DNA of 64,000 bases, from assembly GCF_014696715.1 (NCBI RefSeq), contig NZ_JACJQO010000005.1, forward strand, positions 310,001-374,000. The letters run 5' to 3'. Shown in pieces: positions 9,782 to 27,285 of this stretch. This stretch comes from Pseudanabaena sp. FACHB-2040 (lineage in GTDB: Bacteria; Cyanobacteriota; Cyanobacteriia; Phormidesmidales; Phormidesmidaceae). Position 1 is the stretch's first letter; every line of letters begins with the position of its first letter. Under the pieces are notes generated by a model. That model did not search any database, was not told the origin of the DNA, and saw only the letters and a list, made by a program, of their open reading frames with translations. Made by a program: the position numbers and the translations under genes.

Positions 9782-10150
9782 ATGCCGATTCAGCAACTTT
9801 CGCTTTATGAGATCAGCCAGGACATGCAGCAGTGCATTCAAAACTGTCTGGACTGCCACAGCATTTGCCTTAACACCATCACCTACTGTCTGCAGCAGGG
9901 TGGCCACCACAGCGAACCCGCTCACATTCGGCTGATGATGGACTGCGTTGAAAGCTGTCAGACCAGCGCCAACTTCATGCTGCGGAACTCCGATCTACAT
10001 GCTCATTTCTGTAGAGCCTGTGCCGAGGTCTGCCAGCGCTGCGCTGAAGATTGCGATCGCATGGGCGACGATGCCCAAATGAAAGCCTGCGCCGACATGT
10101 GCCGCCGCTGCGCCGAAACCTGCCGCCAGATGTCTATGGCGATGGCTTAA
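9782..10150 (+). CDS. Four-helix bundle copper-binding (Csp-type) protein
   Basis: This 122-residue protein carries 16 Cys residues, nearly all spaced i, i+3/i+4 along predicted helices (CIQNCLDC, CRACAEVC, CADMCRRC). That is the signature of the DUF326/copper-storage (Csp) family, in which a four-helix bundle lined with thiolates holds many Cu(I) ions. No signal peptide is visible, so this is the cytosolic type, like Csp3. Its likely role is to buffer copper that would otherwise harm thylakoid or cytosolic enzymes. Copper proteins of photosynthesis are not encoded nearby. The start is set by the AGGAGG box at 9771. The gene converges with the SH3 gene at 10162. Confidence 0.9.
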   Translation: MPIQQLSLYEISQDMQQCIQNCLDCHSICLNTITYCLQQGGHHSEPAHIRLMMDCVESCQTSANFMLRNSDLHAHFCRACAEVCQRCAEDCDRMGDDAQMKACADMCRRCAETCRQMSMAMA

Positions 10151-13993: not shown

Positions 13994-16822
13994 TTGGGTG
14001 AAGCTACGGAGCTGTCTCCTGACAATTTCGATTGCCTTGGGAATAATGCGGGAAACCTAACGGCAGACTCACACAGGATTCCTAGAGATCTCAGTACTTA
14101 TAACTTTTTGGACCAGATCTCCGGGCTCCAGCTTTGGCAGAGGGCCATTTTAACAATGGGGCGATGGATATATGGGAATGAGCACCCCTACGACAAGGCT
14201 CATCAGCTGGCGGCTCAAGGCGACTATACCGTTATCACGTCCTCCCAGTTGGCTGCGAGAGCCCTGTCTGCGCGGCACCAATCCCTGCGTTCTCTGGCGG
14301 TTAAATGCTTAGAAAACCAGGGCTGGCGCGTAGCGTCGCCACTGATGGCTCAAGCGCTGTTTCGACAGGTATTGCAAGACACCCTGCAGCCTGCCGATTT
14401 GCTGGGCATGGCTCGCTCCTGGATGCCTGCGGTGCAGTCGATCTTGCAAAGCTGCGCTGGCTTCGCGGCCTCGCCTGCCGTATCTCCGCGCACACAGCAG
14501 ATTCTGCAGATTGCTCAGCAGTACCGGGCTGCTCTGCATCAGCGGCAACTGGTGGATGTCGGTGAAGTCTTTTGGCGGGCGGCTGAGCTGCAGCCGCAGC
14601 CGCAGCAGATCTTGGTCTATGGGTATTTTCAGCCGCAGCCAGATGAGTTGGCGTGGATCAATGCGATCGCAACTTCCCACAGCGCCTTCTTCCTTCCCTG
14701 CCCCAGTCAAGCACTTTTTACAGACAGCCAAGCGGCACTGAACTGGCTGCTTCAGCAGGGCTGGGAGCGGGTGCCCGACCCAACCCCAGCAGGCACCCCA
14801 GGCGAGACCTTGGGCCAAATTTTTCTAGGAGTCTCGGCTAGCCCACCGCAAACTGCCGCAGCCCACGGCTACAGCACCGCTGAGGCTGAAATTCGAGGCA
14901 CCTTGGCCCAGGTAAAAGAGCTGCTGCTGCTGGGCGTTCCGGCTAGAGATATTGCTGTCGTTGCCAGAGACGAAACTGCCTACGGCCCTAAGCTAATCGA
15001 CATCGCCTGGGAATATGGCGTGCCGCTGCGGGCGCTGTACGACACCCCTTTTCTCAGCACCCGTCTGGGCGGCTGGCTGAGCCTGCTGCTGGAGGTGATT
15101 GAAGCGGGCTTTCCCTTTGAGGCCACGGCCAAGCTGTTGAGTCATCCTCTGGCCAGCAATCCTGATGGGGAGTTTTGGTCTGCTGTTCGCAGCCGTCATC
15201 CTCGGGGGGTGGAGCAGTGGGGTGCGATCGCAAAAGATCTGCTAGACCTCGATCTCACTCTGCTCAGCCAGACCTACCAACCGCAGCGGCGCGACGTTTG
15301 GGTGGAGTGGTGGCAATCGCTGTTCGTGGCCTTTGACTTGCGGCGGCGCTGTGCCCGCTGGGCCAGAGAAAGCCTTGCCTTCAACCGGCTACGAGCGGGC
15401 CTAGTGGAGCTATCGCGGCCAGAGGCTGAAGAACTGTCTTGGCCAGAGTTGCGTCAGCAGTTTACCGATCTGCTGGTGTCGCTGAGTGTCCCAGCTCAGC
15501 CGGGGCGGGGCGGGGTAGAGCTGCACAGACCGACTTCGGTCATGGGTGCGCGCTACGCCCACGTTTTTGTCATCGGCATGACAGAAGGTACTCTCCCTGC
15601 CCCCATCAGCAATGATCCGGTGCTGGATTTCTTTGAGCGGCAGCAGCTGCAGGCGCACGGCATTCCCTTAGCGGCAGCGGCAGCGCTGGCGAGGCGGGAG
15701 GCGCTAGCGTTTTACTACCTGCTGCAAACCGTGACAGAGCAGGTGACATTTTCCTATGCCAGGCTGAAGGAACGGCAGGCCCAACTGGCCAGCCCCTATC
15801 TTGATCGGCTAGCGCTCACGGTAGAACCTCCCCCAGCCTTGCCAGTTGCCAGCCCAGAGGCGCTGCGGCGGATTCTCCTGCGACAGTCTCTGCCGACTGA
15901 GGATGCCGTGTTAACCCGAACCGCCCACGCCTTTGCTGTCGAGCAGCACCGGGAAAGCAGCCAGCCAGCCGATGAATACGATGGCGTTATCGGCATTCCC
16001 TTTGACTACGCTGATTGGCCCTTTAGCGTGTCGCAACTGCGAAATTTGGGGCAGTGCCCGTTTAAGTGGTTTGCCAACAAAGTGCTGAGGCTGGGGCCTC
16101 TGGAGGAAGCAGAAGATGACCTAAGTTCCAGTCAACTGGGCACGTTCTATCACCGGGTGCTAGAGCTGATTGGGGTCGAAATTCAGCGAGACCCCTTCGT
16201 GGATCTGACTCGCCCTGAGCTGCTAGAGGAAGCGTTTGCAGCAGCGGAGCAGGAACTGATGCCAGCAGATTCGCCTGTCTGGGGCTTTCGGCGGCAAGAG
16301 CATCTGCGCTCCCTATCTTTAGTGCTTCAGCATCCAGACTTTTTGGCGGCGGGAGCCATTCCCGTGGTTTTAGAAGGGGCGTTTGAAGGGGAATGGCATG
16401 GCTTGAAGGTAAGAGGCCGGGTCGATCGGATTGACCAGACTGCTGCCGGGTTGGTGCTAATCGACTACAAAACGGGCAGCAGCCGTCCCCCTGGAATTAA
16501 GGACAAAACGGGAAAAGCCTGTATTGATCTGCAGCTTCCTCTCTATCAGGAGGTGGCTGGGCCAGCCCTCTGCCCAGATTCGACTGTGGCAGCGGCCTAC
16601 TACTATTCCCTGCGAGGCCGCAAGAAAATTCCGATCTCTACCACTGCGCCCCAGCACGAGTTGCCCGATGCTATTGAGCGCTGTAAAGAGCACTTGCACC
16701 AGGGTAGTTATCCTGTTCAGCCCGACAACGCTAGGGCTGCCTGCCAATACTGCGATTTTGACGCCCTGTGTCGCCAGGGCAATCGGTTGAGCCGTAAGGA
16801 GAACAGCAATGGGACTGACTGA
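13994..16822 (+). CDS. AddB-like subunit: inactivated helicase fold with Fe-S PD-(D/E)XK nuclease
   Basis: The protein has up to 942 residues and resembles AddB/RexB-type partners of double-strand-break resection helicase-nucleases. No Walker A box is found in the N-terminal half, so the helicase fold is probably structural (recombination-hotspot or partner recognition in AddB). The C-terminal nuclease has His720 (GTFYHRVLE), Asp811 (RGRVDRID) and Asp824-x-Lys826 (LIDYKTG). Four Cys suited to a 4Fe-4S cluster are C688 (GQCPF) and C917-x2-C920-x5-C926. The start is uncertain: TTG at 13994 or, more likely by family pattern, ATG at 14156 before GRWIYGNEHPYDKA. It overlaps the AddA-like gene by 14 bases. 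Confidence 0.85.
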   Translation: MGEATELSPDNFDCLGNNAGNLTADSHRIPRDLSTYNFLDQISGLQLWQRAILTMGRWIYGNEHPYDKAHQLAAQGDYTVITSSQLAARALSARHQSLRSLAVKCLENQGWRVASPLMAQALFRQVLQDTLQPADLLGMARSWMPAVQSILQSCAGFAASPAVSPRTQQILQIAQQYRAALHQRQLVDVGEVFWRAAELQPQPQQILVYGYFQPQPDELAWINAIATSHSAFFLPCPSQALFTDSQAALNWLLQQGWERVPDPTPAGTPGETLGQIFLGVSASPPQTAAAHGYSTAEAEIRGTLAQVKELLLLGVPARDIAVVARDETAYGPKLIDIAWEYGVPLRALYDTPFLSTRLGGWLSLLLEVIEAGFPFEATAKLLSHPLASNPDGEFWSAVRSRHPRGVEQWGAIAKDLLDLDLTLLSQTYQPQRRDVWVEWWQSLFVAFDLRRRCARWARESLAFNRLRAGLVELSRPEAEELSWPELRQQFTDLLVSLSVPAQPGRGGVELHRPTSVMGARYAHVFVIGMTEGTLPAPISNDPVLDFFERQQLQAHGIPLAAAAALARREALAFYYLLQTVTEQVTFSYARLKERQAQLASPYLDRLALTVEPPPALPVASPEALRRILLRQSLPTEDAVLTRTAHAFAVEQHRESSQPADEYDGVIGIPFDYADWPFSVSQLRNLGQCPFKWFANKVLRLGPLEEAEDDLSSSQLGTFYHRVLELIGVEIQRDPFVDLTRPELLEEAFAAAEQELMPADSPVWGFRRQEHLRSLSLVLQHPDFLAAGAIPVVLEGAFEGEWHGLKVRGRVDRIDQTAAGLVLIDYKTGSSRPPGIKDKTGKACIDLQLPLYQEVAGPALCPDSTVAAAYYYSLRGRKKIPISTTAPQHELPDAIERCKEHLHQGSYPVQPDNARAACQYCDFDALCRQGNRLSRKENSNGTD
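16796..16801 (+). promoter_or_regulatory. Ribosome binding site AAGGAG
   Basis: AAGGAG lies 7 bases before the ATG at 16809, inside the end of the AddB-like gene. It supports translational coupling of the two subunits. Confidence 0.75.
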
Positions 16823-19800
16823 GCAGCAAAAGCGGGCGGCGCACGCCCCCGGCAGCGTAGCGGTCACCGCCGGGGCTGGCACGGGCAAGACTCACATGCT
16901 GGCCGAGCGGTACCTCTACTTTTTGAATCGGGGGTACTCGCCTCTGCAAATGGTGGCCGTAACGTTTACAGAAAAAGCGGCGACAGAGTTGCGATCGCGC
17001 ATTCGCCGCACCATTACTACCCACCTAGCCGATCGCCCCGATCTGCTGGCCGAACTAGAAGCCGCTCAAATCAGCACTTTCCATGCCCTTGCTTCCCGCA
17101 TTTGCCGGGAACACCCCGACAAAGCTGAGGTGCCGCCTGACTTCCAGATTTTGGAGGAGTTTGACAGCCCAATTTGGCAGGCGGAGCAGATGTCCGAGGC
17201 CCTAGCTCAGCTTCCCGGCCATCTCTATCAAGCGCTTTCTTTCTCCAAAATGCGGGATATTTTGGCAGGGCTGCTAGCCGATCCGCTAACCGCAGAGCAG
17301 GCATTGCCCAGAGTGCGAGCCGACTGGTTGCCCGCTGTTGCCTCTGCCCGCCAGCAGGCCCTAGACGACCTGCTAGCAGATGGTCTCTGGCAATGGGGCA
17401 AAACGACGCTAGCGGCCTACGCAGCTCCAGGGGATAAGCTAGAGGCTCATCGGCTGACGGCAGTGGCTGCGATCGCAACTCTCGAACAAGGCCATGAGAT
17501 TGCCCCTTCCCTAACCGCTTTAGCTAGCCTCAAGATCAACGTCGGCAGCGCCCAGAATTGGGGCGGTAAAGAGGCGCTAGCCGAAGTTAAAGAAGCCCTC
17601 AAAGCGCTTCGGGGTTTGGCAGAAAGCACCTTGAAAGCGGGACTGATTACGCTGCAGCCCAGCGCCTGCGATGACCAGACTGAAGCGATGCTTCCGTCCA
17701 TTCGAGCCGCCTTTGCCTGGGTTCGTGAATATCTGCAGGCGGCCAAATACCAGCAGCGCCTGCTCGACTTTAACGACCTGGAAGTTCACGCCCTCAAAGC
17801 CCTTGCCCATCCAGAGGTACAGACCTACTACGCCCAGCGCTGGAAAGTCTTTTTAATTGACGAATTTCAGGACACCAATCCCATCCAGGGGCAGTTTCTC
17901 GAAATTTTGACTGCCCAGGCAACTCTGACTATCGTGGGCGATGCCAAGCAATCGATCTACGGCTTTCGGCGGGCCGATGTGCAGGTTTTTCAGGCGTGGC
18001 AGCAGCGCCTTCACCCGTCGCCCGATGGCCCAGTGGAGCTGAGCCTGAGTTTTCGCACTCACCAGGCGCTCATGGCGCAGATCAATCAGGTGTTTGCTCC
18101 GGTTCTGGGTGACCTGCACCAATCGCTAGAGGCCTATCGCCAAGAAGACCTAGAGCCGACGCCTGCCCTCCAGCTCTATACCGTCTCCATTGACGAAGCC
18201 TATAAAAAAGACAACACGATTGACACCCATATCAATGCCTGCCGTCGAGTTGAGGCTCAGCAGATTGCTGACCTGGTAGAGCAAATGCTCCAGACCCCAA
18301 TTCAGGTGCACGACAAGTCCACTGGCCAGCCACGAGACATCCAACCCAGCGATATTGCCGTCTTGGCGCGCAACTGGGCTCCGCTGGAGAGCTACGGCAG
18401 TGCGATCGCAGCCCGCAACATCCCCGTTTTGCAGGCGGGCGGCGGCAATCTGCTGGAAACTCGCCCAGCTAAAGATGTCTGGGCTCTGCTGCGCTTCCTG
18501 GCCGATTCCAGCGATAATCTAGCGCTGGCCGCCGTCTTGCGCAGCCCTTTCTTTGCCATCAGCGATACAGCCTTCTACCATGTTGCTCAATCCCTGGCTG
18601 ACAAAACCACTTGGTGGCAGCACCTGAGAACGAGTAATGCGCCAGATCTCCAGACAGCAGCTAAAGCCCTCCAGCAACTGCAGATTGCTCGTCGCACAGA
18701 AACGCCCACCCGGCTGCTGCAGATTTGCGATCGCCTCACGGGCTATACCGCTGTCATCGCCAACCTCCCGGGCTCAGCCCGGCTCTTGGCCGACTGGAGC
18801 GGCTTTATGGAGTTGGTACGCACCTTAGAGCAGGGCAGTTATGACGTGCTGGGTGTGGTGCGTCGCCTCAAGCGCATTGCCGCAGGGGGTGCAGCGGTGC
18901 CCCGACCAGCTCTAGAAGGCGGCAACGCCGTCAGTCTAATGACCATTCACGGCTCTAAGGGCTTAGAGTGGCCCGTCGTCATCGTGCCTGATCTGTCTCA
19001 CAGCAGCGCTGCCGACTATCCCACCCTGCGCTTTGATGCAGATCTGGGGCTAGCCCTCAAGCTAGAAGACGAGGCAGGAGAATCACAAAAATCAGCCCTC
19101 TATACCCTTTTGGAGCAACGTCAGCGCCTAGCAGACCGAGAAGAAAGCAAGCGGGTGCTCTACGTAGCCCTTACCCGCGCCCGCGACCAGCTTATCCTCA
19201 CAGCTGCCGGTTCGTCTGGCGGTGGTCTTGACCTGCTCCAGCCCGGCCTAGAAGGCCTGATTGAGCCGACCCCCATTCCATTCCATCCAGAGCGGGCTCA
19301 GCTGGTTGAGCCCATCGCCCCAGAGCTGCCAACGCTGCCAAATCAGCTGATGGTGCATCCAGCAGGATCTGGATTTACAGAACTGCCTGTCACTGCCCTG
19401 AGCGACTATGCTTTATGCCCCCAGCGGTTCAAGTATCGCTATGTAGACGGGCACCCTGGCTTGCAGTCTGGTACAGGGCCGCAACAGTTCCCTCTGGAGC
19501 TAGGTCAGCTAACCCACAAAGCGCTGGAGCTAGGCATTGACGAGGCGGACAAACTCAGTCAATACGTGCCTCACCTGCCGTCAGCCATCGCGTCAACCCT
19601 AGCCCAAGAAGCCCTCACGCTCGCCCAAAAATTTCACCACTCTGAAGTCTATGCAGCCTATCGTCAGGGCCACCTGCAGTGGGAGCAGCCAGTCTCCCTG
19701 AAGGTGGGGGGGCTTACCCTAAACGGCGTAATAGATCTGCTAGGGGCTGACTTTGTGCTTGATTTCAAGACAGACACCGCGCTCCACCCAGAGCACCACC

Positions 19801-20027
19801 AGTTTCAGCTTTGGGCCTACGCCAGAGCCGCCGGACGAGACACAGCGCACCTGGCCTATCTCCGCCACGATTATCTACACAGTCTGAATGCAGCGACCTT
19901 GAGCCATTTAGACCAGTCCTCAGAGGCGCTGGTAAATCGGCTGGTGAAAGGGCAGTTCGAGCCTGAAGCCCACCCTATCGGCTGCGGCATTTGTCCTTAT
20001 TCGGAGATTTGCGACAGTTGCGTGTAG
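16809..20027 (+). CDS. AddA-like UvrD-family helicase-nuclease with Fe-S cysteines
   Basis: This 1072-residue superfamily 1 helicase carries Walker A TAGAGTGKTH (K27), Walker B LIDEFQDT (D351, E352), GDAKQSIYGFRRAD, TIHGSKGLEWP and YVALTRARDQL. A C-terminal PD-(D/E)XK nuclease follows, with His903, Asp976 and Asp985-x-Lys987. As in AddA/RecB it should unwind and degrade double-strand DNA ends to prepare them for RecA. Unusually, this subunit also has the four-Cys pattern, C870 (LCPQRF) and C1059-x2-C1062-x5-C1068. In classical AddAB that pattern belongs only to AddB. The start is fixed by AAGGAG. The 3-prime end overlaps the convergent cupin gene by 31 bases. Confidence 0.92.
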   Translation: MGLTEQQKRAAHAPGSVAVTAGAGTGKTHMLAERYLYFLNRGYSPLQMVAVTFTEKAATELRSRIRRTITTHLADRPDLLAELEAAQISTFHALASRICREHPDKAEVPPDFQILEEFDSPIWQAEQMSEALAQLPGHLYQALSFSKMRDILAGLLADPLTAEQALPRVRADWLPAVASARQQALDDLLADGLWQWGKTTLAAYAAPGDKLEAHRLTAVAAIATLEQGHEIAPSLTALASLKINVGSAQNWGGKEALAEVKEALKALRGLAESTLKAGLITLQPSACDDQTEAMLPSIRAAFAWVREYLQAAKYQQRLLDFNDLEVHALKALAHPEVQTYYAQRWKVFLIDEFQDTNPIQGQFLEILTAQATLTIVGDAKQSIYGFRRADVQVFQAWQQRLHPSPDGPVELSLSFRTHQALMAQINQVFAPVLGDLHQSLEAYRQEDLEPTPALQLYTVSIDEAYKKDNTIDTHINACRRVEAQQIADLVEQMLQTPIQVHDKSTGQPRDIQPSDIAVLARNWAPLESYGSAIAARNIPVLQAGGGNLLETRPAKDVWALLRFLADSSDNLALAAVLRSPFFAISDTAFYHVAQSLADKTTWWQHLRTSNAPDLQTAAKALQQLQIARRTETPTRLLQICDRLTGYTAVIANLPGSARLLADWSGFMELVRTLEQGSYDVLGVVRRLKRIAAGGAAVPRPALEGGNAVSLMTIHGSKGLEWPVVIVPDLSHSSAADYPTLRFDADLGLALKLEDEAGESQKSALYTLLEQRQRLADREESKRVLYVALTRARDQLILTAAGSSGGGLDLLQPGLEGLIEPTPIPFHPERAQLVEPIAPELPTLPNQLMVHPAGSGFTELPVTALSDYALCPQRFKYRYVDGHPGLQSGTGPQQFPLELGQLTHKALELGIDEADKLSQYVPHLPSAIASTLAQEALTLAQKFHHSEVYAAYRQGHLQWEQPVSLKVGGLTLNGVIDLLGADFVLDFKTDTALHPEHHQFQLWAYARAAGRDTAHLAYLRHDYLHSLNAATLSHLDQSSEALVNRLVKGQFEPEAHPIGCGICPYSEICDSCV

Positions 20028-23586: not shown

Positions 23587-26500
23587 ATGGACTTTGACGA
23601 CATCATTAGCCTGGTCAACCAGACCGTCATTTCCGCCAGAAAAAAGCCCCTAAGTGACGTGCAGCGAGTCGTCCTCAAGGGTTCCTGGGACAATCAGACC
23701 TATACCGACATTGCTAACGATGCCGTCGGCTACACAGAGGACTACCTAAAACGAGATGTTGGCCCTAAGCTCTGGCAGCTGCTGTCGGAGGTGACGGGGT
23801 ACACCGTCAACAAGCGCAACATTCGCAATGCCATGCTGGAGTGGGCGGCTCAGCAGCTCCCTGAGCCGGAGCCCAGCAACGGCGTGGTGACCAAACCGCA
23901 AGCTGCTGTAAGCGAGCTGGCGGCAGAACAGGCGGCAGCTCCTTCTCGGCTGGCCCTGTGTCAGGCTTTGCGGATTGATGTCTCAGAGTTTTCTGGCAGG
24001 CAGGCAGAACAGGCTCAGCTGACCCAGTGGATTGTTGCTGAGGGGTGCCGCCTGGTGCTGCTGTGGGGACTGCCGGACATGGGCAAAACTTCTCTGGCTA
24101 TGAAGGTAGCGGAGCAGGTTCGGGCTGAGTTTGAGCAATGTGCCTATTTAGAACTGCACTCAGCGCTTTCCCCAGAGGCGTTTTTGAATGAGGTGGCGGG
24201 CTGGCTGAGCGATGCTCCGCCCCAGGGCAGTTGGGATGGGCAGCTGGACTGGGTGATGGATCAGTTTGCGCAGCGGCGCTGCCTGCTGATCGTGGACAAC
24301 GGGGAAGTGCTTTTTGAGCCTAATCAACTGGCGGGCACCTTTCGGCAAGACTGTTTGGCCTATCGGGATTTTTTGGAGCGGGTGTCCCGGTTTGTACACC
24401 AGAGCTGCGTTTTCTGGATTAGCCGGGAGCGGCCTAAGGAGTTTGCCACCTTGCAGGGGCGGCTGGTGCAGTCGTGGGAGCTGGGGGAGCTGTCTGCCGC
24501 CGAAGTGAAGGATTTTCTCACCGCCCAGGGCTGGCCTGCTGCTGCCCCTGAGGAGTGGCAGGCCCTAGTTGATCGCTATAGCGGCAGCCCCCAGCTGCTC
24601 AAGAGCCTCACACCGCATCTGCAGGTGATTCACGGCGGCAATTTGTCCCGTTTTTTGGAAGATGAGGTCAGTCTGCCTGACCTAGAGCGACGCAGCCTGA
24701 TGGAGATTGTTGGCCGTCTCTCGCCGCCAGAGCGTTCGCTGCTTTACTGGCTGGCGCTGGCTCAGGAACCCGTGGCGTTGCGAGAGTTGAGCAATAGTAT
24801 GGTGCAGCCGCCCACCGCTGATGGGGTGCAGTCGCTACTGGGGCGGGCGCTCTGCCACCATGCCGGAGAGGATCCGGCAATGGGCACCCGGCTCGATCTC
24901 AATCCTGCTGTTCGCATTTTGGCCACAGAGCAAGCGGTGCAAGCCCTAGAGGCTGAAATTGTAGAAGGCTGCATTGAGCTTTTCCACCAGATGCCGCTGC
25001 TGCGGGTAACGGCTCCTGAAACTGTGCAGGCCCGTCAGCTAAAATTAATCATTCAGCCACTGGCCCAGGCATTGGAGCAGCGTTGCCCTTCTGAAACGGC
25101 TTTGAGCGGGTGGGTGCAGCGGGTGCATCAGGCATTGCGATCGCAATACCTCAACCAGCCCGGCTACGGAGCAGGCAACTTGATCCACCTGTGTCAGGCG
25201 CTCGATATCAGCCTCACCAGCTTTGACTTTTCTAGCCTCAGCATTTGGCAGGCCAACCTGCAGCAGATCAGCCTGCAGGGGGCCAACTTGAGCCAGGTGC
25301 GCTTTCAAGATACGGTGTTTGCTACGGCTCTGGGCCGAGATCTGGTGGTGAGCTTTAGCCAAGACGGGCAAAACCTGGCCGTGGGCGACCACGAGGGCTG
25401 CCTGCTGCACTGGGAAATTCAGCGGGGCCGACTGCTACGATTTCTAGAAGACAACAACGCCAAGTCAGTACGGTCTCTAGCCTTTAGCCCCCAGGGCGAC
25501 CTGCTAGCTGTAGGCAGTGCCGACGGCACCCTTCAGCTCTGGCGGCTAGGCACTCTCTACGAATCGGATCTGCTCTATAACCATCAGGCCCCTGTGCAGG
25601 CCCTAGCCTTTAACCGCGAGGGCGATCTACTGGCGACGGGCGACGAGGCAGGCTGTCTCTATCTCTGGGATCTGTCCTCCGGCCTGCCCCGGCTGACCCT
25701 GGCCGAGACAGGCGACCCAATTCACTGCCTGCAGTTTAATGCTGAGGGCACCCGGCTGATTAGCGGGGGCGAGAGCCAGAGCGTTGCCCTATGGGATGTC
25801 CAAACGGGAGAGCAGATTTGGCAGTTTCAGGTGCAGGCGACAGCTTGGGTGCGATCAGTGGGGTTTATGCCCGTGCCTGCTGGACTGACTGCCGATGCCG
25901 GAGCAGAAATGGCCTTTGCTGCAGGCTATGACGAGACTTGCCTCTACATTTGGGACGTGGAGGAGGGGAGGCCAATTCGAGTTGTGCCAATGGCGATGGG
26001 GACTCTGCCTGCTATTGCCGTCAGCAGCGATGGTCGCTTTTTGGCCTGCAGCCGACCCGACCGCACAGTGATTATCTGGGACGTGATTAGCCGCCACTAC
26101 CATCACCAGCTCTCTAGCTTTGACCTGCCCGTTTGGTCTTTGACGTTTAGCCCGGATAGTCGTCTGCTGGTCACGGCGAGCGACTACACGGTTAAGGTCT
26201 GGGATGTGGCGACGGGCATTTGTCTACGGAGCTTGGGCAGTCAGCGCTACTCTCTCAAGTGCCTGGCCTTTGATGGCGAAAGTACGCGGCTGATCACCGG
26301 GCACGACGATACGCTTCTGCGCACCTGGCAGGTCAATACTGCGGGGGCTTTTTCTCGTCGCCCCCGCAGTCTGAGAGGACACAGTGCCCCGATTCGCTCG
26401 GTGACGGCCAGTTCTCAAGGCGGCTGGCTGGCCAGCAGCAGCGAAGATCGCACGATTCGCCTTTGGCAAACGAGCAGCCAGGGAGAACTCGTTTCCCCTC

Positions 26501-27285
26501 GAAGTGAAGGCCTGCGAGAACCGGTTCCGGCCCATCGCATTCTCACCAATGATCTGATCTCGCCAGCGACGGTGATGGTCTTTAGCGGCGACGGTCGCTG
26601 GCTGGCCAGTGGCGGCGAGGATGCCATAGTACGGCTATGGTCCCTCGATTTGCCTCAGCCCCATGACCTGCGGCTAGAGGGGCACACTGGGCCGATTACA
26701 GCGCTGGTCTTTACCGGCGAAGGTCATATCATTAGCGGCAGCCGCGATCGCACCTTGCGCCGCTGGCAGATCACCGATGGTCGCTGTCTACAAACCCTAG
26801 AAGGCCACCAGCGCCAAGTCCACGGCCTCAGCCTTAGCCCCGATGGTCATCTGCTCAGCGTCAGCCACGACGGTACTGCCCGCTGGTGGCACCTGGCCAG
26901 CGGGGAATGTCGGGGTCTGTGGCAGCACCCCCAGCATTTCTGGCTACACGGCTGCATGGTTGATCGGCAGGGAAGGCTCGTTGCGATCGCAAGCAGCGAC
27001 ACCCTCACCCTAGAGCTATGGTCTGTTACAGACAACCAAAAGCTTCAAGAGTTTAGTGGCCACACCCACGAGATCTGGCAAGTCTGTGTTAGCCCAGATC
27101 GCCGCTACCTAGCTACTGCCAGCCAGGACGAAGAAATCCGCATCTGGCGGCTGGATCTGGGCACCTGCGAACAGGTGCTGCGGCCCGATCGCCCCTACGA
27201 AGGCGTCAATATTCGCGGTGCTAAGGGCCTAACCGAGCCAGAAGAACAGATGCTGCGCTCTCTAGGCGCGCTGGTGAGCTACTAG
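23587..27285 (+). CDS. vMAP-type HTH, STAND NTPase and WD40-repeat protein
   Basis: This 1232-residue protein has four parts. Residues 1-90 match the helix-turn-helix-like N-terminal domain of vWA-MoxR-associated proteins (TYTDIANDAVGYTEDYLKRD). Residues ~135-450 form an NB-ARC/NACHT-like NTPase with Walker A GLPDMGKTS (K167) and a Walker-B-like RCLLIVDNGE. Residues ~545-575 contain a few pentapeptide-like units (LQGANLSQVRF). From ~580 to 1220 I count 14 WD40 repeats, enough for two seven-bladed propellers. STAND proteins sense a ligand through repeats and oligomerise on NTP binding. They act in signalling or in antiphage defence. No effector domain is visible, so any output must come from a partner. 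Confidence 0.88.
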   Translation: MDFDDIISLVNQTVISARKKPLSDVQRVVLKGSWDNQTYTDIANDAVGYTEDYLKRDVGPKLWQLLSEVTGYTVNKRNIRNAMLEWAAQQLPEPEPSNGVVTKPQAAVSELAAEQAAAPSRLALCQALRIDVSEFSGRQAEQAQLTQWIVAEGCRLVLLWGLPDMGKTSLAMKVAEQVRAEFEQCAYLELHSALSPEAFLNEVAGWLSDAPPQGSWDGQLDWVMDQFAQRRCLLIVDNGEVLFEPNQLAGTFRQDCLAYRDFLERVSRFVHQSCVFWISRERPKEFATLQGRLVQSWELGELSAAEVKDFLTAQGWPAAAPEEWQALVDRYSGSPQLLKSLTPHLQVIHGGNLSRFLEDEVSLPDLERRSLMEIVGRLSPPERSLLYWLALAQEPVALRELSNSMVQPPTADGVQSLLGRALCHHAGEDPAMGTRLDLNPAVRILATEQAVQALEAEIVEGCIELFHQMPLLRVTAPETVQARQLKLIIQPLAQALEQRCPSETALSGWVQRVHQALRSQYLNQPGYGAGNLIHLCQALDISLTSFDFSSLSIWQANLQQISLQGANLSQVRFQDTVFATALGRDLVVSFSQDGQNLAVGDHEGCLLHWEIQRGRLLRFLEDNNAKSVRSLAFSPQGDLLAVGSADGTLQLWRLGTLYESDLLYNHQAPVQALAFNREGDLLATGDEAGCLYLWDLSSGLPRLTLAETGDPIHCLQFNAEGTRLISGGESQSVALWDVQTGEQIWQFQVQATAWVRSVGFMPVPAGLTADAGAEMAFAAGYDETCLYIWDVEEGRPIRVVPMAMGTLPAIAVSSDGRFLACSRPDRTVIIWDVISRHYHHQLSSFDLPVWSLTFSPDSRLLVTASDYTVKVWDVATGICLRSLGSQRYSLKCLAFDGESTRLITGHDDTLLRTWQVNTAGAFSRRPRSLRGHSAPIRSVTASSQGGWLASSSEDRTIRLWQTSSQGELVSPRSEGLREPVPAHRILTNDLISPATVMVFSGDGRWLASGGEDAIVRLWSLDLPQPHDLRLEGHTGPITALVFTGEGHIISGSRDRTLRRWQITDGRCLQTLEGHQRQVHGLSLSPDGHLLSVSHDGTARWWHLASGECRGLWQHPQHFWLHGCMVDRQGRLVAIASSDTLTLELWSVTDNQKLQEFSGHTHEIWQVCVSPDRRYLATASQDEEIRIWRLDLGTCEQVLRPDRPYEGVNIRGAKGLTEPEEQMLRSLGALVSY

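Follow-up and report, generated by a model that had tools for sequence, protein, structure and literature searches.

Two overlapping genes in a 64,000-nucleotide stretch of the genome of the cyanobacterium Pseudanabaena sp. FACHB-2040 (contig NZ_JACJQO010000005.1, positions 310,001 to 374,000; "the window") encode what looks like a real, conserved variant of the known AddAB machine and not a machine of a new type. Its subunits, one AddB-type (B) and one AddA-type (A), each end in a PD-(D/E)XK nuclease domain that bears the four-cysteine (Cys) signature of an iron-sulfur (Fe-S) cluster. The pair quite probably constitutes a two-subunit AddAB-type helicase-nuclease that resects DNA double-strand breaks and has iron-staple nucleases in both A and B. 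An earlier note on this DNA had proposed an AddAB-like operon with Fe-S-type nucleases in both subunits, and the Cys positions that it gave are exact to the residue in both open reading frames. The elements, in coordinates of the window, are:

13994..16822, + strand: AddB-type subunit (B), 942 amino acids as listed, TTG start
16022..16774, + strand: PD-(D/E)XK nuclease domain of B, residues 677-927 (PDDEXK_1, 122 bits)
16055..16057, + strand: Cys688 of B, first iron-staple Cys (sequence, homologue conservation, A/B profile alignment)
16742..16771, + strand: C917-x2-C920-x5-C926 of B (sequence, homologue conservation, A/B profile alignment)
16809..20027, + strand: AddA-type subunit (A), 1072 amino acids
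16809..19208, + strand: superfamily 1A (SF1A; UvrD-type) motor of A, residues 1-800, with GAGTGKT and DEFQ
19389..20015, + strand: PD-(D/E)XK nuclease domain of A, residues 861-1069 (PDDEXK_1, 60 bits; weak profile matches to 4ic1 and 4r5q)
19416..19418, + strand: Cys870 of A, first iron-staple Cys (sequence, homologue conservation, A/B profile alignment)
19983..20012, + strand: C1059-x2-C1062-x5-C1068 of A (sequence, homologue conservation, A/B and 4ic1 profile alignments)

The term "iron-staple nuclease" designates a four-Cys pattern that spans the nuclease domain and has a role in its integrity (PMC7430649). A fits this AddB/Cas4/Dna2-type pattern: one Cys (C870) precedes the PD-(D/E)XK core and three (C1059, C1062 and C1068, with an additional C1071) follow it. 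The corresponding set in B is C688, C917, C920 and C926. The last three are spaced CxxCx5C in both proteins, and to that extent the "same spacing" of the earlier note holds; the distance between the first and second Cys differs (229 residues in B vs. 189 in A). PDDEXK_1 is found at both C-termini above the Pfam cut-off of 22 bits, and the catalytic residues are kept in both proteins, as had been claimed. Aligned with each other (hhalign), the two nuclease profiles match with a probability of 97.5 and an E-value (E) of 5.9e-12 at 21% identity, the four Cys, H, D, D-x-K and Q all falling in register. The B profile matches AddB (3u44_B). The best PDB match of the A profile is 4ic1 (E 2e-4), which we take to be a Cas4 with a cluster: C1 and C2-C4 lie on the Cys of 4ic1, the stretch bearing C1 scoring 4 bits only; the second match, to the Cas4-family 4r5q, is weak (E 0.036). 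By signature, then, both nucleases would be of the iron-staple type, each predicted to hold a cluster.

How well is the double signature kept? Among 146 genomes of the phylum 15 gave a strong A match, and among 388 of the class 41 did: 44 different genomes together. All nine residues (four Cys, H, D, D, K, Q) are present in 36 of the 44 A (36/37 of those extending to the catalytic core) and in 41 of 43 B (four of them with E for the second D; the other two are cut, making it 41/41 of those uncut). Identity to the window's proteins among the first 14 homologues is 41-50% for A and 33-45% for B, and retention of the nine residues at such identities makes it improbable that the shared Cys are there by chance. 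The Cys are thus conserved among homologues; lack of such conservation was one of the outcomes that the earlier note had named as refuting its proposal. Beyond this branch, weak A matches occur in six further genomes of the 146-genome set (E 1e-23 to 1e-42); the Cys set is present in none of the seven AddA- or RecB-like proteins of the phylum from other branches (those of the six weak-match genomes plus locus L081).

A and B go together. B is present in 43 of the 44 genomes with A and, within the 146-genome set, in exactly the same 15; the lone A (genome G238) is a partial frame on a 4602-base contig of an assembly with 8% contamination. The two genes are close neighbours (same strand, within about 1.2 kb) in 32 of 43 genomes, and in the window they share the + strand and overlap by 14 bases. 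(B probably starts at the ATG at 14156, because the homologue alignments that reach its N-terminus begin at residues 47-81 of the listed frame.) The flanking genes do not travel with them: among 34 relatives the upstream gene was matched in 34 and the downstream one in 25, and where these are on the same contig as A they are tens of kilobases or more distant, not neighbours. Two side observations belong here. The A/B pair is patchy within one genus (g83), some of whose genomes have it while others, 99-100% complete, yield no match; and there are second, partial copies of B with an internal stop in genomes that have a fuller copy elsewhere (L206, at G228:C131:75-1706, and G189:C364:32941-33632).

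The signature in both subunits, as the earlier note had it, requires one qualification: five of the 44 cyanobacterial A (L060 in G002, L056 in G021, L062 in G026, L059 in G041 and L057 in G066) have no nuclease domain at all and end soon after the motor. (Two more of the 44, in G238 and G465, are cut by contig ends.) The B nuclease is complete in all five genomes. No nuclease fragment was found by motif within 2.4 kb downstream of these A, and none by profile in the five fetched regions except B itself, which those regions cover in three genomes, since A and B are not close together in G002 and G066.

The architecture is that of AddAB. A comprises an SF1A motor, with Walker A and B motifs, and a C-terminal RecB-family nuclease; B comprises a helicase-like domain and a C-terminal nuclease with the iron-staple signature; addA and addB occur together (43/44). 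AlphaFold models were built from 15-row alignments (mean predicted local distance difference test score 85 for B, taken from 14156, and 84 for A). By Foldseek the best PDB folds for B are AddB (3u44_B and 3u4q_B, E about 1e-32), then AdnA and RecC; for A they are AddA (4cej_A, 4cei_A, 4ceh_A and 3u44_A, E 8e-46 to 1e-38), then RecB. VIA-align superimposes 801 residues of A on 4ceh_A at 4.0 Å, a match equalled on Z by PcrA and UvrD chains, and barely covers A beyond residue 839. The pair is AddAB-like, as the earlier note had it, with A closest to AddA, B closest to AddB, and AdnA lower. Like Bacillus subtilis AddAB (PDB 3u44, 3u4q, 4ceh-4cej), the pair has two subunits, one SF1A motor in its AddA, a helicase-like AddB, a nuclease at each C-terminus and a four-Cys iron staple in AddB (PMC4027173, PMC7430649).

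The recognizable motor is, by its sequence motifs, in A only. Pfam finds UvrD helicase domains in A, not B; 42 of 44 A have GAGxGKT, and the remaining two frames (G238 and G383) are without their N-terminus. The strict P-loop pattern G-x4-GK[ST] is found in none of 43 B, three of which (G211, G453 and G465) are frames without an N-terminus. (A note on patterns: the strict one also misses A's own AGAGTGKT; a looser one, [AG]x4GK[ST], was run as well and finds 42 of 44 A.) B differs in this respect from B. subtilis AddB, which has a P-loop; Cromie, in 2009, is said to have described classes of AddB by Walker A and the Cys set. The earlier note had counted the single active motor toward a distinct arrangement. 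That there is one motor stands; a single SF1A motor is, however, the normal state of AddAB (PMC4027173) and no part of any novelty.

Might the pair be an AdnAB-type enzyme of the actinobacterial kind instead? AdnAB (mycobacterial and actinobacterial; PDB 6ppj, 6ppr, 6ppu, 7sjr) also has two nuclease-bearing subunits, and among the folds matched by B AdnA comes second to AddB. AdnA is the counterpart of AddB (PMC4824097), and its Cys set parallels that of B. Of 22 places eight were fetched in full, AdnA and AdnB being named from gene order and motifs (here, and everywhere outside the cyanobacteria, motifs were called by pattern, not alignment). They comprise six AdnAB-like pairs of Actinomycetota, one AddAB-like pair (L280, with the Cys set in B only) and one unclear case (L281). 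The Cys set is present in five of the six AdnA (the exception, L279, is without it by pattern) and in none of the six AdnB, whereas A has it; a glycine-rich P-loop is present in five of the six AdnA and absent from B; and Foldseek places AddA and AddB above AdnB and AdnA. An AdnAB identity was rejected on these three grounds, and we consider it very improbable. (Six A-like proteins were also seen in 41 Actinomycetota genomes: three with the Cys set, namely L256, L258 and, with a longer last spacing, L255; two without; and one cut.) RecB and RecC, among the next-best folds, are a likeness to E. coli RecBCD; unlike the inactivated nuclease domain of RecC (PMC1185551), B has its nuclease residues complete. 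The window's genome has no RecB above the model cut-off of 696 bits: the best match reaches 165, and all the others are weaker and in frames of 702-818 amino acids. A RecBCD identity was rejected by RecB alone (RecD was not searched for). Synechococcus PCC7942 and PCC7002, according to PMC5101192, have an E. coli-like recB and no recCD.

Could the Fe-S nuclease of A be a recent acquisition, a domain swapped in from B? That the two subunits are encoded in one operon and carry the same signature invites the idea. In the nuclease-domain tree (78 rows), the cyanobacterial A domains form one set (support 99) and the B domains another (99), the latter grouping (support 87) with five B domains from other lineages; these separate sets, and profiles that are 21% identical, make a recent swap from B to A hardly credible, and it was rejected by this tree. 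The deep forks are weak, and an ancient swap may have taken place. The motor tree (FastTree; 118 motor regions, among them 23 of the 44 cyanobacterial A plus L074 and L075; AdnB not included; long branches meet; L076, L086, L133, L135, L140, L141, L150 and L151 left out as short or cut) also joins the cyanobacterial A in one set, with support 100, and puts the five nuclease-less A in two places inside it. On the motor tree the presence of the Cys set changes 8 times over 104 rows, compared with a mean of 30 (lowest 24) in 200 shufflings; without the stand-alone and fused proteins described below the count is 6 changes over 97 rows. Such counts do not separate gain from loss.

What weighs against an AddAB-type enzyme with two staples? 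1) All of the support comes from sequence and models. 2) The Pfam score of the A nuclease is below that of B (60 vs. 122 bits). 3) The NCBIfam equivalog cut-offs are missed (272 of 708 bits for addA_Gpos, TIGR02785, and 61 of 904 for addB_Gpos, TIGR02773), and because of this the proteins are filed as an AddAB-type pair of their own branch, not as the Gram-positive equivalog. 4) The plain P-loop pattern [AG]x4GK[ST] does match 4 of 43 B, but none of the four matches is glycine-rich like AGxGxGKT, three lying ahead of the first strand and one at residue 631. 5) Eleven of 43 genomes have A and B at a distance from each other or on different contigs. 6) Of the 388 cyanobacterial genomes searched in the class, 347 gave no match to A at E 1e-50; A is therefore not a core repair component across the class. 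7) The A model is of low confidence at about residues 1050-1072, which hold three of the four Cys. 8) The A of genome G280 (L171) keeps C1 and the catalytic residues and its frame stops before C2-C4, about 100 bases from a contig end; no C2-C4 set was found there in another frame. This may be either a natural partial loss or an assembly fault.

The last two points also speak for the chief alternative, in which A has kept its Cys as a leftover site, structural or zinc-binding, and its nuclease works as that of classical AddA does, with no Fe-S cluster. Classical AddA evidently manages so: the Cys set is present, by pattern, in none of 40 Gram-positive-model AddA, just as the earlier note had said of the classical protein, and the cluster is therefore not needed for the role of AddA as such. 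(The control comprises 40 of 74 Bacillota genomes with a TIGR02785 match: the 30 best-scoring loci plus 10 weaker ones, 34 over the cut-off and 6 under it. Three of the 30 best loci are also without D-x-K by pattern.) Contrary to expectation for a leftover, 36 of the 37 A extending to the catalytic core retain the four Cys, whose order and register are those of B, and the A that lack the domain (5/44) lack it entirely. We regard a leftover site as unlikely, and the AddAB-type enzyme with two iron-staple nucleases as the better account.

Is the arrangement peculiar to these cyanobacteria? The Gram-positive-model AddA and AdnB are both without the Cys set, and no published report of a Cys set or Fe-S signature in AddA was found in the literature searched, most subscription papers being outside its coverage. 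The loci compared were the best 80 of at least 581 by likeness to the query, and fractions among them are not frequencies. Setting aside two with cyanobacterial A, 78 loci remain: the A-like protein has the Cys set in 16, a nuclease motif but not the set in 48 and no recognized motif in 8; it is cut in 6. By pattern, six of these loci have the set in A together with an adjacent AddB that has it too: L079 (Acidobacteriota), L080 (Planctomycetota), L085, L093 and L102 (Bacillota) and L089 (Aquicultor); in the B of L080, L085 and L093 three or four residues separate the second and third Cys. The double arrangement thus recurs, by these motif calls, outside the cyanobacterial branch, and the earlier note's "distinct arrangement" holds relative to Gram-positive-model AddA and AdnAB-like pairs, not relative to other lineages, even Bacillota (L085, L093, L102). 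A seventh double locus is less sure: the partner in L136 (Ozemobacteraceae) has eight residues between its second and third Cys and scores also as a motor protein, and the locus may on that account be AdnAB-like. The Bacillota AddA with the Cys set that lie outside the Gram-positive model's set are L085, L093, L102 and L114, the first three with a signature-bearing AddB; in L114 B is cut at a contig end, and no B was seen in L088.

Two observations arose on the way. AddB-like Cys sets with 3 to 8 residues, not 2, between the second and third Cys (L080, L078, L085, L086, L090, L093, L136) are missed by a strict CxxC search. The notion of bacteria with the Cys set in AddA only, and none in AddB, was rejected: inspection of all Cys found the set, with the 3-8 spacing, in those AddB as well.

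Six of the 16 A-like proteins with the Cys set (L124, L128, L142, L148, L149 and L153) look like stand-alone UvrD-Cas4-like proteins, and we read them as members of the published UvrD-Cas4-like fusion family of pfam12705 (PMC5704561), in which, as in A, a single chain runs from a UvrD motor to a Cas4-like nuclease that bears the Cys set. Unlike A, the six have no AddB partner by the B profile, and they form a separate branch of the motor tree. One more of the 16 is a fusion: in L127 (Fidelibacterota, also Marinimicrobia; frame at 9938) an AddA-like motor and an AddB-like region with the Cys set lie in one frame of 2075 amino acids, as if fused.

How would such an enzyme work? In B. subtilis AddAB the AddA motor pulls the 3' strand and each strand passes its own nuclease domain; Chi is recognized by the N-terminal region of AddB, after which the AddA nuclease is thought to stop cutting the 3' strand while AddB continues on the 5' strand (PMC4027173, PMC4824097). 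By analogy, the UvrD-type motor of A would pull the 3'-ended strand and unwind the duplex; the helicase-like domain of B, without a glycine-rich P-loop, may scan the 3' strand and hold the complex together; the B nuclease would cut the 5' strand and that of A the 3' strand. In both nucleases an Fe-S cluster, held by one Cys ahead of the catalytic core and three behind it, would link the two ends of the domain. With a nuclease-less A the enzyme would presumably cut the 5' strand only. As for Chi, PMC10269773 states that S. elongatus encodes AddAB and that potential Chi sites have not been identified in S. elongatus or other cyanobacteria; between the AddB of firmicutes and of proteobacteria, PMC1193525 reports no significant similarity.

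One can imagine a history in which early AddAB had the iron staple in both nucleases and lost it from AddA in the lineages of the textbook enzymes, while the cyanobacteria kept the double staple; two cyanobacterial branches would then have dropped the AddA nuclease, leaving a single-nuclease AddAB that trims only the 5' strand and makes 3' overhangs without a Chi switch. This is offered as a tentative conjecture, more doubtful than not.

Elsewhere in the window, positions 23587-27285 encode a protein of 1232 residues that, judged by its sequence only, is ATPase-like with C-terminal WD40 repeats. The genome has three more PDDEXK_1 matches, at C5:236833-237525, C13:278864-279700 and C3:25625-26002, in frames of 266, 739 and 227 residues.

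Should A indeed hold a cluster, the Fe-S staple would cease to be a defining mark of the AddB side: either resection nuclease could carry or lose it. That would bear on what the cluster is for (stability of the fold, binding of DNA ends, sensitivity to oxidation), a question of interest in oxygen-evolving cells. The cyanobacteria supply a natural comparison, with two staple nucleases in 36 genomes and the B, 5'-strand, nuclease only in five; such natural variants would allow tests of the role of the AddA nuclease and of Chi.

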